Part shown: piece by piece, positions 19,115-24,367 of the stretch
Numbering within the stretch: the first letter of the stretch is position 1
How the letters are laid out: each line of letters begins with the position of its first letter
Assembly (NCBI RefSeq): GCF_014836555.1
Contig: NZ_JACSQQ010000015.1
Coordinates: 25,172 to 89,171, forward strand
Origin: Oerskovia rustica
GTDB lineage: Bacteria; Actinomycetota; Actinomycetes; Actinomycetales; Cellulomonadaceae
Length of the DNA: 64,000 nt
Direction of reading: 5' to 3'
Program-made: the position numbers and the translations under genes
The notes under the pieces: generated by a model
Database searches by the model: none
What the model was told of the DNA's origin: nothing
The model's input: the letters and a program-made list of their open reading frames with translations, nothing else

Positions 19115-20161
19115 CTAGGCCGCAGCGGCGTCCGCGGTGCGACGCAGGGCGGCGAGGATCCCGTCCGCGGTGAGGGACCCGACGACGTCGCCCGCCTCGT
19201 CCGCGACGGGCACCCGGCCCATCGCGGCCCCGGGCAGCGCCGCGATCGCCTCGAAGGCGACGGACAGCGGCGCGCCCAGGCGGATCGGGTCGGGGGCGGG
19301 CGCCGAGATGAGGTCGACGCTCTCGAGGTCTGCGCGCTGCACCATCGCGAGCCCGAGCATGCGGACGGGCGCGCCCTCTCCGATGAACTCCCGCACGGCG
19401 TCGCTCGCGGGGTGGGCCAGGACGGTCAGGGGCTCGGCGAGCTGTTCGAGGTGCCCGCCGAAGCTGAAGACCGCGATGCGGTCGGCGAGGTGGACGGCCT
19501 CGTCGATGTCGTGCGTCACGAACAGGACCGTGGTCCCGAGCTCGCGCTGGATACGCCGGAACTCGGTCTGGAGCCTTCGGCGCCCGGCAGGGTCGACGGC
19601 ACCGAAGGGCTCGTCCATGAGCAGGACCGGCGGGTCCGTCGCGAGGGCCCGGGCCACGCCGACGCGCTGGCGCTCGCCGCCCGAGAGCTCGTGCGGGTAG
19701 CGCTTGGCGTAGGTGTCGGGGGCAAGACCGACGAGCTCGAGCAGCTCGCCGACCCGTGAGCGGGTCCGTGCCTTGTCCCAGCCGAGCAGCCCCGGGACGG
19801 TCGCGACGTTCTGGGCGACGGTGCGGTGCGGGAACAGGCCGACGTTCTGGATCACGTACCCGATCCGCCGCCGCAGGGCCACGGGGTCCCCCTGCGTGAT
19901 GTCCTCGCCGCTCAGCAGGATGCGCCCGGCCGACGGCTCGACGAGGCGGTTGGTCATGCGCAGCGTCGTGGACTTCCCGCAGCCGGACGGCCCGACGAGC
20001 GCGAGCATCTCGTGCTCGCGCACGCTCAGGGACAGGTCGCCCACGGCGACCGTCCCGTTGGGGTACTCCTTGCGGACGCCGTCGAACACGATCGCCGCCT
20101 CGTCGGTGATCGTCGGGAACGCTGGGGTGGCCTCGGTGGTGCCGGTCGGGGTGCTCGCCAT
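19115..20161 (-). CDS. Osmoprotectant (glycine betaine/choline type) ABC transporter ATPase
   Basis: This 348-residue ATPase has Walker A GPSGCGKSTT, Q-loop YVIQNVGLFPH, signature LSGGERQRVGVARAL, Walker B VLLMDEPFGAVDP and H-loop FVTHDIDEA. The wording QNVGLFPH and GAVDP is typical of the ProV/OpuA-OpuC family. A C-terminal part of about 100 residues resembles a CBS pair, used in this family for ionic-strength sensing. It is divergent from the two permeases, with TAGCGT 6 nt before its ATG and the facing TAGGTT 44 bp away. It thus shares a compact 68-bp control region with them. Confidence 0.88.
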   Translation of the reverse strand: MASTPTGTTEATPAFPTITDEAAIVFDGVRKEYPNGTVAVGDLSLSVREHEMLALVGPSGCGKSTTLRMTNRLVEPSAGRILLSGEDITQGDPVALRRRIGYVIQNVGLFPHRTVAQNVATVPGLLGWDKARTRSRVGELLELVGLAPDTYAKRYPHELSGGERQRVGVARALATDPPVLLMDEPFGAVDPAGRRRLQTEFRRIQRELGTTVLFVTHDIDEAVHLADRIAVFSFGGHLEQLAEPLTVLAHPASDAVREFIGEGAPVRMLGLAMVQRADLESVDLISAPAPDPIRLGAPLSVAFEAIAALPGAAMGRVPVADEAGDVVGSLTADGILAALRRTADAAAA

Positions 20162-20229: not shown

Positions 20230-20970
20230 ATGCCGCCCAACCCGTGGTTCTCGTGGAGCTACGTCCAGAACAACTGGGGAGAGATCTCCCAGGCGCTCGT
20301 CGAGCACACGACGATCACCATCCAGGCCGTGCTGATCGCCCTGGTCATCGCCCTGCCGCTCGCGGCGCTCGCGCACCGTGTGCGCTGGCTCGCCGTCCCC
20401 GTGCTCGGCACGACGGGCGTCATGTACACGATCCCCTCCCTCGCGCTGTTCTCGATCCTCGTCCCGTTCACGGGGATCGGTCGGACCCCCGTGCTCATCG
20501 GTCTCGTGATGTACGCCCTGCTCATCCTGGTGCGCAACGTCCTGGTGGGCCTGCAGGGCGTCGACCCGGACGTACGCGACGCGGCCAAGGGCCTGGGCTA
20601 CGGGCCCACGCGGCTGCTGGCAGCGGTCGAGATCCCGAACGCGCTGCCGAGCATCATGACCGGCGTGCGGCTCGCGACGGTCTCGACCGTGGCGCTCGTC
20701 ACGGTCGGGTTCGTGGCGGGGTACGGCGGGCTGGGCACCCTGATGTTCCGCGGCTTCCGGTCGAGCTACAACGCCCAGATCATGACGGCCACGCTCCTGT
20801 GCCTGCTGCTGGCCGTCGTGCTCGACCTGCTGCTTCTCCTGCTGGGCCGGGTCCTGACACCGTGGTCGCGCACCCGTGCGCCGGGCTCGACGGCCCGCCC
20901 GACGGGACGGGGCACGACCGAGGCGGCGGTCGCGCAGGCGGCCGAAGCGGCGAGCGAGCGGACCGCATGA
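20230..20970 (+). CDS. Osmoprotectant ABC transporter permease 1
   Basis: The 246-residue membrane protein has about five to six helices and the binding-protein-dependent permease EAA loop (DVRDAAKGLGYGPTRLLAAVEIPNALPSIMTG) in the region 115-145, represented by AAKGLGYGPTRLL and EIPNALPSI. It matches OpuCB/YehW-type permeases. The start is ATG 20230, 7 nt after TAGGTT. Its C-terminal 40 residues are a hydrophilic Ala/Arg/Thr tail. It is followed without gap by the second permease. Confidence 0.87.
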   Translation: MPPNPWFSWSYVQNNWGEISQALVEHTTITIQAVLIALVIALPLAALAHRVRWLAVPVLGTTGVMYTIPSLALFSILVPFTGIGRTPVLIGLVMYALLILVRNVLVGLQGVDPDVRDAAKGLGYGPTRLLAAVEIPNALPSIMTGVRLATVSTVALVTVGFVAGYGGLGTLMFRGFRSSYNAQIMTATLLCLLLAVVLDLLLLLLGRVLTPWSRTRAPGSTARPTGRGTTEAAVAQAAEAASERTA

Positions 20971-21647
20971 ACGTCGTCGAGGAAGCCCTGACGTGGCTCA
21001 ACGACCCGCTCAACTGGACCGGCCCCGACGGGCTGCTGGTCCGCACGGGCGAGCACCTGGAGATGACCGCGATCGCGGTCCTCCTGGCCGCCCTGATCGC
21101 GCTGCCCGCGGGCATCTGGCTCGGCCACTCGGGCAAGGGCGCAGGGCCGACGATCGTGATCGTCAACACCTCGCGCGCGCTGCCGACGTTCGGGATCCTG
21201 CTGATCCTCGCGGCGGGCGGGCTGTTCGGTGACCGGGCCGCGGTCATCTCGGCCGTGATCTTCGCGATCCCGCTCATCCTCGCGAACGCCTACACGGGCG
21301 TCGCCGAGGTCGACCCCGACGTCAAGGACGCGGCGCGCGGCATGGGCATGAGCTCGCAGCGCTCGCTGTGGCTCGTCGAGCTGCCGCTCGCGGTGCCGTT
21401 GGTCGCGGCGGGGCTGCGGACCGCGATCGTGCAGGTCATCGCGGTGCTGACGCTCGCGGCGTTCGTCGGTGGCGGGGGGCTCGGCGTGCCCCTGCGCGTC
21501 GGGTTCTCCAACCAGCGCTACGGGCAGGTCCTCGCGGTGGGCGTCGTGATCGCGGTGCTGTGCCTCGTCGTCGACGCGGTCCTCGCGCTCGTCCAGCGGG
21601 CCGTGACCCCCGCGCCGCTGCGCGTGAAGGCGGGCACCGTGCGCTGA
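20967..21647 (+). CDS. Osmoprotectant ABC transporter permease 2
   Basis: The 226-residue permease starts at ATG 20967 inside the stop of the first permease (ATGA). It has the EAA loop KDAARGMGMSSQRSLWLVELPLAVPLV (key parts DAARGMGMS and ELPLAVP) and the family end FVGGGGLGVPL. The two permeases probably form a heterodimer with two copies of the divergent ATPase. The binding protein gene follows after 86 bp. Confidence 0.87.
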   Translation: MNVVEEALTWLNDPLNWTGPDGLLVRTGEHLEMTAIAVLLAALIALPAGIWLGHSGKGAGPTIVIVNTSRALPTFGILLILAAGGLFGDRAAVISAVIFAIPLILANAYTGVAEVDPDVKDAARGMGMSSQRSLWLVELPLAVPLVAAGLRTAIVQVIAVLTLAAFVGGGGLGVPLRVGFSNQRYGQVLAVGVVIAVLCLVVDAVLALVQRAVTPAPLRVKAGTVR

Positions 21648-21733: not shown

Positions 21734-22744
21734 ATGTCACGGCGATCCACCACCTTCCGCACCCTGACCGCTTCCGCCCTCCTCGTCGTCGCTCTCGCGG
21801 CGTGCGGCGAGGCCGGTTCCTCCGGCACCGAGGCGTCCGGGGATTCCACGTCGACCGCGAGCGGCACCGTGTGCGAACCCGTCGCCGGCGACGCGCTCGT
21901 CGTCCTCGAGGACGACAAGAACCTGCAGACCGTCGACAACATCATCCCGGCGGCCAACGCGGCCGCCGTCGCGAACCAGCCGGCCGTGCTGGAGCTGCTC
22001 GACACCGTGTCCGCGGCGCTCGACACCGACAAGCTCATCGCGCTCAACAAGGCCGTCGACGTGGACCGGCAGACGTCCTCGCAGGCCGCGCAGAAGTTCG
22101 TCGAGGACGAGGGTCTCGCGGCGACGTCGACCCCGGGGACCGGCACGTCGCTCGTCGTGGGCGCGGCCAACTTCTCCGAGAGCACGACGCTCGCCGAGAT
22201 CTACGCCGCGGTCCTGCGCTCGGGCGGCTACGACGTCACGGTCCAGACCGTCGACGCGCGCGAGACGTACCTGCCGGCGCTCGAGTCGGGCCAGCTCAGC
22301 GTGTTCCCCGAGTACGTGGGGACGCTCACCGAGTTCCTCAACAAGGAGATCAACGGCGCCGACGCCGAGCCCCTCGCGAGCGGTGACCTCGACTCCACCG
22401 TGACCGCGCTGCGCGACCTCGGGACGCAGAAGGGCCTGACGTTCGGGGAGCCGTCGGCGGCCCAGGACCAGAATGCGTTCGCCGTCACGACGGCCTTCGC
22501 CGAGAAGTACGACGTGTCGACGCTCAGCGAGCTCGCCGAGGCCTGCCCCGGCGGTGTCACGCTCGGCGCCGGCCCGGAGTGCCCCGAGCGCGCGTTCTGC
22601 CAGCCGGGGCTCGAGGAGACCTACGGCCTCAACGTGACCAACTTCGTGAACCTCGACGTGGGTGGGCCGCTGACGAAGTCGGCGCTCCTCCAGGGCGAGA
22701 TCGTGCTCGGCCTCGTGTTCTCCTCGGACGGCCAGCTCGGCTGA
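21734..22744 (+). CDS. Osmoprotectant-binding lipoprotein, circularly permuted OpuCC/ProX type
   Basis: This 336-residue lipoprotein (lipobox AAC, Cys24) should capture the substrate and deliver it to the permeases. The order of its segments is unusual. Residues about 47-128 (ALVVLEDDKNLQTVDNIIP to KFVEDEGL) correspond to what is normally the C-terminal end of YehZ/OpuCC proteins. Residues 139-336 (LVVGAANFSESTTLAEIYA to LGLVFSSDGQLG) correspond to the normal N-terminal part. The end GLVFSSDGQLG would usually run straight into VVLEDDK. The linker AATSTPGTGTS joins the old termini. Both lobes look intact, so function is probably kept. Confidence 0.88.
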   Translation: MSRRSTTFRTLTASALLVVALAACGEAGSSGTEASGDSTSTASGTVCEPVAGDALVVLEDDKNLQTVDNIIPAANAAAVANQPAVLELLDTVSAALDTDKLIALNKAVDVDRQTSSQAAQKFVEDEGLAATSTPGTGTSLVVGAANFSESTTLAEIYAAVLRSGGYDVTVQTVDARETYLPALESGQLSVFPEYVGTLTEFLNKEINGADAEPLASGDLDSTVTALRDLGTQKGLTFGEPSAAQDQNAFAVTTAFAEKYDVSTLSELAEACPGGVTLGAGPECPERAFCQPGLEETYGLNVTNFVNLDVGGPLTKSALLQGEIVLGLVFSSDGQLG

Positions 22745-22775: not shown

Positions 22776-24287
22776 CTACAGGCCGTAGGTCTCGAGCAGC
22801 CGTAGCCAGACCTCGCTGATCGTCGGGTAGGCGGGCACAGCGTGCCACAAGCGTGCAAGCGGCACCTGCCCGACGATCGCGATGGTCGCGGCGTGCAGCA
22901 TCTCCGCCGCGTCCGGGCCGACGAACGTCGCGCCCACGACGACCTGCCGGTCGGTGTCGACCACGATCTGCGCGGTCCCCTCGTAGCCCTCGGCCACGAG
23001 CACGGCCCCGGACACGGACCCCAGCTTGTACGACACCGCCTTGACCGTGAGCCCCGCCTTCCTGGCCTCGGCCTCGGTCAGCCCCACCGACGCGACCTCG
23101 GGGCGGGAGAACACGACCTGGGTCTTCGCACCGTGGTCGGCGGTCGCGGCGTAGCGGCTCCACGGCTCGGGGGTCTCGCCGTCCGCCCCGGCTGCCGCGG
23201 CCTCCCCCGGCTTCGCCCTCCCGAACCTCGCCGCGACCACGTCGCCCACGACGCGCCCCTGGTACTTGCCCTGGTGCGTGGTCGCCACGCGTCCGGTCAC
23301 GTCCCCGCACGCGAACAGCCAGCCGCCGTCGACACCCTGGACCTCGAGCTGGTCGTCGACCGCGAGCGCCTTCCCGGGCTCGAGCCCGACGACGTCGACC
23401 CCCAGGTCCGCGGTGCGCGGCACGCGGCCCGTCGCGACGAGCACCTGCGCCGCCGCGACCGACCCCTTGCCCCGGGGGCCGTCGTACGCGAGGCGCGCTC
23501 CGCCGTCGGGAAGGGACGACGCTCCCGTGACGCTCACACCCAGGCGCACGTCCACGCCGATCGTCTTCAGGCCGGCCGCGACGGCCTCGCTCGCGAAGGG
23601 CTCCGAGCGTCCGAGCAGGCGTCCGCGCGAGAGCAGCGTGACCTGCGACCCCAGGTCGCGGAACGCCGTCGCCATCTCGACGCCCACCACTCCCCCGCCC
23701 AGGATCACGATCGAGGGCGGGACGTCCTGGACGCTCGTGGCCTCGCGGCTGCTCCACGGGTCGGTCTCGGCCAGCCCCGGGGTGTCGGGCAGGACGGGCA
23801 CGCTGCCCGTCGCGACGATCACGGCGTGCCGGGCGGCGAGCAGGCGGGTCTCGGGGAGGTCGTCGACGTCGGCGTCGGGGTCCTCGGGGCCGACCTCGAC
23901 GAGCTTTTCCCCGACGAGCCGGCCCAGGCCGCGCACGAGCGAGATGCCGGCGCCGTCGAGCCACTGGACCTGCCCCGAGTCGTCCCAGTGCGAGACCATC
24001 TCGTCGCGGCGCGCGAGGATCGGCGCCGGGTCGAGCTCCGGGTCGGCCCGGACGCCGGGGACCGCGCGCGCGGCCGCCAGCGCCGCACCCGGGCGCAGCA
24101 GCGCCTTGGACGGCATGCACGCCCAGTAGGAGCACTCGCCGCCGACGAGCTCGGCCTCGACCACGGCAACGCTCAACCCGGTGCGGCTCGCGCGGTCGGC
24201 GGCGTTCTCGCCGACGGGCCCACCACCGATCACGATCACGTCGTAGGTCTCGTCCGGGGTGGCCTGGGTGCGTGGGTCGGTGCTCAT
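22776..24287 (-). CDS. Pyridine nucleotide-disulfide oxidoreductase (lipoamide dehydrogenase-like)
   Basis: The 503-residue flavoprotein has the FAD site DVIVIGGGPVGENAA, a redox disulfide C52-x4-C57 in GGECSYWACMPSK, an NAD(P) site IVILGGGVVGVEMA and the second FAD motif WLFACGDVTG. In lipoamide dehydrogenase and glutathione reductase the catalytic base is the His of HxxPTxSE. Here that place is PAYPTISE, so His is Tyr. It is therefore probably not a true E3 subunit, and its electron acceptor is unknown. ATG 24287 is used, and ATG 24296 is equally possible. Confidence 0.8.
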   Translation of the reverse strand: MSTDPRTQATPDETYDVIVIGGGPVGENAADRASRTGLSVAVVEAELVGGECSYWACMPSKALLRPGAALAAARAVPGVRADPELDPAPILARRDEMVSHWDDSGQVQWLDGAGISLVRGLGRLVGEKLVEVGPEDPDADVDDLPETRLLAARHAVIVATGSVPVLPDTPGLAETDPWSSREATSVQDVPPSIVILGGGVVGVEMATAFRDLGSQVTLLSRGRLLGRSEPFASEAVAAGLKTIGVDVRLGVSVTGASSLPDGGARLAYDGPRGKGSVAAAQVLVATGRVPRTADLGVDVVGLEPGKALAVDDQLEVQGVDGGWLFACGDVTGRVATTHQGKYQGRVVGDVVAARFGRAKPGEAAAAGADGETPEPWSRYAATADHGAKTQVVFSRPEVASVGLTEAEARKAGLTVKAVSYKLGSVSGAVLVAEGYEGTAQIVVDTDRQVVVGATFVGPDAAEMLHAATIAIVGQVPLARLWHAVPAYPTISEVWLRLLETYGL

Positions 24288-24367
24288 GCCTCCCATCGTG
24301 ACCCGGACCTCGCGCGGTTGCCCGCCGGGGCGCGGGGGCGGGTGCCCAGGGAGGAGAGCCCAGCCCC

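Follow-up and report, generated by a model that had tools for sequence, protein, structure and literature searches.

The substrate-binding proteins (SBPs) OpuAC, ProX, OpuBC, OpuCC and OsmF (PF04069; type II, cluster F-III, PMC9732360) have a two-lobed fold with hinges, are anchored as lipoproteins and belong to operons with a ProV-like ATPase and two permeases; their segments follow the order N1-N2-C. Natural circular permutation is already known among glycine-betaine-type binding proteins, as B. subtilis OpuAC (2b4l) was found in the CPSARST study of 2008 to be permuted relative to Archaeoglobus ProX (1sw1) (PMC2395249). The glucose-binding lipoprotein Tp0684 (MglB-2) of T. pallidum is likewise a natural permutant of a lipid-anchored binding protein and has retained ligand binding; it differs from the protein described here by its Type I / cluster B fold, its ligand, the place of the cut and an added fourth lobe crossing (PMC4990184). 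In the literature searched on circularly permuted OpuAC-like proteins, a scope outside which most subscription journals lay, the CPSARST study alone treats the family, and the arrangement described below is absent.

The window, that is the whole stretch of 64,000 nucleotides of Oerskovia rustica DNA that was analysed, carries such an SBP gene, whose product the first-pass annotation had read as circularly permuted. As presented in Table 1, the canonical C-terminal segment comes first and the canonical N-terminal segment second. The PF04069 (OpuAC) profile matched with 139.4 bits, against a gathering cut-off of 21.2, and the whole domain was covered in two stretches of the same frame, with Pfam positions 188-256 preceding positions 2-184. 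The chain order is thus C-N1-N2 instead of the canonical N1-N2-C, and we refer to this form as CP-A. The same swap was observed with phmmer against PDB chains: residues 145-335 of the query aligned with 13-196 of EgtUC and residues 54-129 with 200-275, and the ProX and YehZ/OsmF chains also matched in swapped order. By contrast, the OsmF equivalog profile NF049931 (NCBIfam) gave 72.8 bits, under its curated cut-off of 400 bits, a score that the permutation itself lowers, the profile being linear. Each segment is present once, the order is rotated, a linker lies at the old termini and the predicted fold is compact, as in a circular permutant. The segment boundaries proposed in the first-pass annotation (about 47-128 and 139-336) agree with the profile and PDB alignments, and the short Thr/Gly linker that it had placed between the old termini is indeed there; in the 136 CP-A proteins this linker measures 8 to 12 residues and contains 29% Gly.

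Table 1. Features of the CP-A locus (coordinates in the window) and, in the last row, the CP-B proteins of other loci.
Feature	Position	Strand	Basis or note
Importer ATPase, ProV-like, divergently transcribed	19115..20161	-	Profile matches, locus comparison
ABC permease 1	20230..20970	+	PF00528
ABC permease 2, its first 4 bases shared with permease 1	20967..21647	+	PF00528
CP-A substrate-binding lipoprotein gene	21734..22744	+	336 aa plus stop, one open frame
Signal peptide and lipobox LAAC24, lipid-anchor C24	21734..21805	+	Sequence; no variation at C24 among 49 aligned CP-A proteins
Ser/Thr/Gly-rich tether from lipid anchor to fold, residues 25-46	21806..21871	+	pLDDT below 50 for residues 9-40
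Segment homologous to canonical C-terminus, residues 47-128	21872..22117	+	Pfam OpuAC 188-256; PDB alignments
Linker between old C- and N-termini, residues 129-138, AATSTPGTGT	22118..22147	+	CP-A comparison
Segment homologous to canonical N-terminus, residues 139-336	22148..22741	+	Pfam OpuAC 2-184; structural match of model 138-336
C47, CP-A-specific cysteine in new N-terminal arm (CEPVAGD)	21872..21874	+	Cysteine tally across relatives
C271, putative partner of C47	22544..22546	+	Cysteine tally across relatives
C283 and C289 (ECPERAFC), older pair common to many canonical relatives	22580..22600	+	Cysteine tally
CP-B proteins	L074:4265-5224; L075:4880-5848; L076:4721-5683; L095; L096; L098		Order N2-C-N1

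A canonical copy of the C segment after residue 336 would have spoken against a permutation. None was found: a profile scan of the locus recovered one C segment, and the next ORF (22776-24296) lies on the strand opposite to the permuted gene. The genome gave a single match to the CP-A protein at E <= 0.001. These results bear on domain shuffling, in which the N-terminal segment would be an accessory domain brought in from another gene and merely resembling the canonical C-terminus. Segment swaps by fusion occur, and this explanation was considered for the glucose-binding protein of T. pallidum (PMC4990184). For the window protein we regard it as very improbable, because the segment scores 116 bits with the same subfamily profile, retains the motif LEDDKxLQxxDNxxP and faces no other C segment that could complete the fold, and because proteins rearranged to canonical segment order give well-supported clades for both CP-A and the second permuted type, CP-B (see below). 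An artefact of annotation or assembly, such as a frameshift, a misjoined contig or a wrong start, has a negligible probability, since the frame runs uninterrupted in more than 100 independent assemblies, including single-contig chromosomes. It was excluded by the confident AlphaFold2 model and by the C-N order in 136 distinct proteins, a recurrence that is not due to chance.

The permuted chain was modelled with AlphaFold2 on 49 permuted sequences, with a mean pLDDT of 89.9 and a pTM of 0.82. Residues from about 50 onwards were mostly above 95 pLDDT and confidence was poor only up to about residue 40, the extent to which the tether is predicted to be disordered. The structural aligner depends on chain order, and two overlapping parts of the model matched known chains separately: residues 138-336 superposed on ProX/YehZ-type chains (Z of about 14.5, rmsd of about 2), and the best sequential match, B. 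subtilis OpuAC, covered residues 44-269 (Z of 16.6, 192 residues, rmsd of 4.4). Residues 47-128 comprise the last strand of lobe 2, hinge 2 and the C-terminal helices on lobe 1, and residues 139-336 most of lobe 1, hinge 1 and most of lobe 2. The interdomain-linker residues of EgtUC have been named (PMC9732360), and by alignment its N339 and Y341 correspond to D245 and N247, and its Y443 to D68. This alignment places residues 47-67 in lobe 2 and 69-128 in lobe 1, so that the permuted chain would begin and end in lobe 2, with the old termini linked on lobe 1. The N-terminal segment had been expected to complete the second lobe, which holds for residues of about 47-67 and fails for 69-128. As claimed from the outset, the natural junction is split over both ends of the protein, the new termini falling between the strands GLVFSSD and ALVVLEDD (335|47).

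We further compared the surroundings of the gene. It sits after the two permease genes, and the layout of divergent ATPase, permease, permease and SBP is common to most permuted loci and to several canonical ones. The permuted gene therefore occupies the operon place of the unpermuted form, which argues for a circular permutation in place. Taken together, profiles, PDB alignments, predicted structure, relatives and operon context support the permutation, and we put at close to nine in ten the probability of the explanation as a whole, namely an importer SBP (OpuB/OpuC/OsmF-type ABC) that was circularly permuted where it stood. In this explanation the old termini, which both belong to lobe 1, would have been joined through the short Gly-rich linker, new termini would have opened in lobe 2, and the lipid tether would have shifted from lobe 1 to lobe 2. 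The two lobes may close on a small polar or cationic solute and hand it to the two permeases.

Tandem duplication followed by fusion and trimming is the textbook route to circular permutants, and CP-A may have arisen in this way. Adjacent tandem SBP genes exist, both copies being permuted in three loci of Klenkia and Modestobacter (L158, L165 and L169) and both canonical in another (L089:4856-6817), so duplication at the locus does occur. No fused intermediate (N-C-N-C or C-N-C) was present in the loci, where only the orders C-N, N-C and N2-C-N1 were found (the tally included two rows of one C-N protein truncated by its contig). As no intermediate protein was found, we only infer the duplication route.

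To describe the spread of CP-A, we analysed a set of 136 distinct CP-A, 69 canonical and six CP-B proteins. A full-length permuted match was found in 64 of the 101 sampled genomes of the family to which Oerskovia belongs, with identities from 100% down to 54%, in 17 of 395 genomes of the class sample and in 2 of 296 of the phylum sample. The genera concerned include Blastococcus, Geodermatophilus, Modestobacter, Klenkia, Promicromonospora, Demequina, Myceligenerans, Micromonospora, Motilibacter, Luteimicrobium, Actinotalea, Isoptericola, Cellulomonas and Oerskovia. The first-pass annotation had suggested similar forms in Micrococcales; the permuted order does occur there, but it is widely fixed in Actinobacteria, in several families and orders and far past that group (Geodermatophilaceae, Micromonospora and Motilibacter). 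Two records look mislabelled: 'Bacillus sp. AZ43' (L121), whose protein is 84% identical to a Blastococcus protein, and one titled 'Spirochaetaceae bacterium' (L171). A match with an internal stop in genome G252 was identified as a canonical gene of the usual kind (L073).

Canonical relatives are close, with up to 56% identity to CP-A in the N part. After rearrangement of all proteins to canonical segment order, the CP-A proteins formed one clade in a tree of 53 rows (10 of 10 rows, bootstrap 100 / SH-aLRT 99), from which the divergent L077, L078 and L098 had been left out. When two divergent rows were added, the likelihood was higher with CP-A held together, and in tests that took in the divergent proteins one origin per permuted type was not rejected. 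These results are consistent with a single origin of CP-A.

Three relatives at the phylum level matched in odd pieces, and their proteins run N2-C-N1, cut near residue 270 of the window protein. We found six proteins of this second type, CP-B, all in one distant family of Actinobacteria (family code f60). CP-B resembles CP-A in its SBP subfamily, in a Gly-rich junction linker of similar length and in its adjoining importer genes; it differs by the position of the cut, by a separate origin and by the lack of C47 and C271. An AlphaFold2 model built on the six sequences reached a pLDDT of 48.6 and was set aside. The similar linkers would fit a single initiating event, in which both types were cut down differently from a common tandem fusion (N-C-N-C). 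We consider such a shared ancestor quite implausible: forcing CP-A and CP-B into one clade lowered lnL by 100.9 and was rejected (AU p = 1.5e-6), CP-B, itself one clade in the 53-row tree (100/94), fell within the canonical proteins of its family in a larger tree, and canonical copies stand alongside CP-B in two genomes (G855 and G879). Overall, the CP-B permutation is independent of CP-A.

B. subtilis OpuAC appears to share the chain order of CP-B. The window protein is 16% identical to the OpuAC chain, which left model residues 270-336 unmatched in sequence, and on the chain 3chg_D residues 48-269 of the model fell on positions 64-272; these ranges suggest an order N2-C-N1 with a cut near residue 270, as opposed to 335|47 in CP-A. 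The event had been called rare, a description to be softened, as it is not unique: CP-B arose independently, and OpuAC is permuted relative to ProX (PMC2395249).

The cysteines also set the three groups apart. C47 and C271 were present in 136/136 CP-A, 0/69 canonical and 0/6 CP-B proteins, a tally that probably reflects one ancestral event long kept and not 136 events. From these sequences, the simplest reading of the co-occurrence would be a C47-C271 disulfide stapling the new terminus; gained with the permutation, it could hold the freed edge strand and the new N-terminus on lobe 2. Alternatively, C47 and C271 may not be bonded together and may have separate roles, for example in a metal site or as partners of C283 and C289. 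This seems unlikely to us, as C283 and C289 are both present or both absent in every protein of the set, canonical ones included, and as a divergent CP-A protein (L078:5021-6037) has lost the two together yet retains C47 and C271. The question touches the staple alone and not the permutation.

For many natural circular permutants the only known counterparts are very distant proteins, from which the event cannot be reconstructed. CP-A has close canonical relatives that occupy its operon position, and its subfamily contains a second permutation, which makes the steps and the costs of a natural permutation directly testable; the relatives provide natural unpermuted controls, and the cysteine pair hints at a means of stabilising a freed terminus. 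For annotation, the linear profiles score permuted proteins in parts only. Permutation being known in this protein class (PMC2395249), the novelty of CP-A is moderate. What is new is a third chain order, the existence of close unpermuted relatives at the corresponding operon place, the CP-A cysteine pair and the independent CP-B. As a tentative idea, to which we give clearly less than even credit, the subfamily might be unusually permutable, with at least two independent openings of lobe 2, at different sites, in Actinobacteria, and CP-A might have been locked by the new disulfide and kept because its anchor sits on lobe 2 instead of lobe 1.

Finally, we examined the ligand pocket. EgtUC, of the quaternary-ammonium-binding cluster F-III, has a four-sided aromatic cage formed by F293, Y341, Y419 and Y443 (PMC9732360). 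The aligned positions of the window protein are Y194, N247, F329 and D68, so that two of four are aromatic, short of a four-sided aromatic cage. The first-pass annotation had named an osmoprotectant-binding protein: the OpuAC/ProX-type domain is confirmed, but with two of the four cage positions polar, osmoprotectant binding is an uncertain assignment when judged from the alignment. F329 is found in 117 of the 136 CP-A proteins. N247 (22472-22474) and D68 (21935-21937) stand in place of tyrosines; both positions are polar in most of the subfamily, which sets it apart from the other cluster F-III SBPs.
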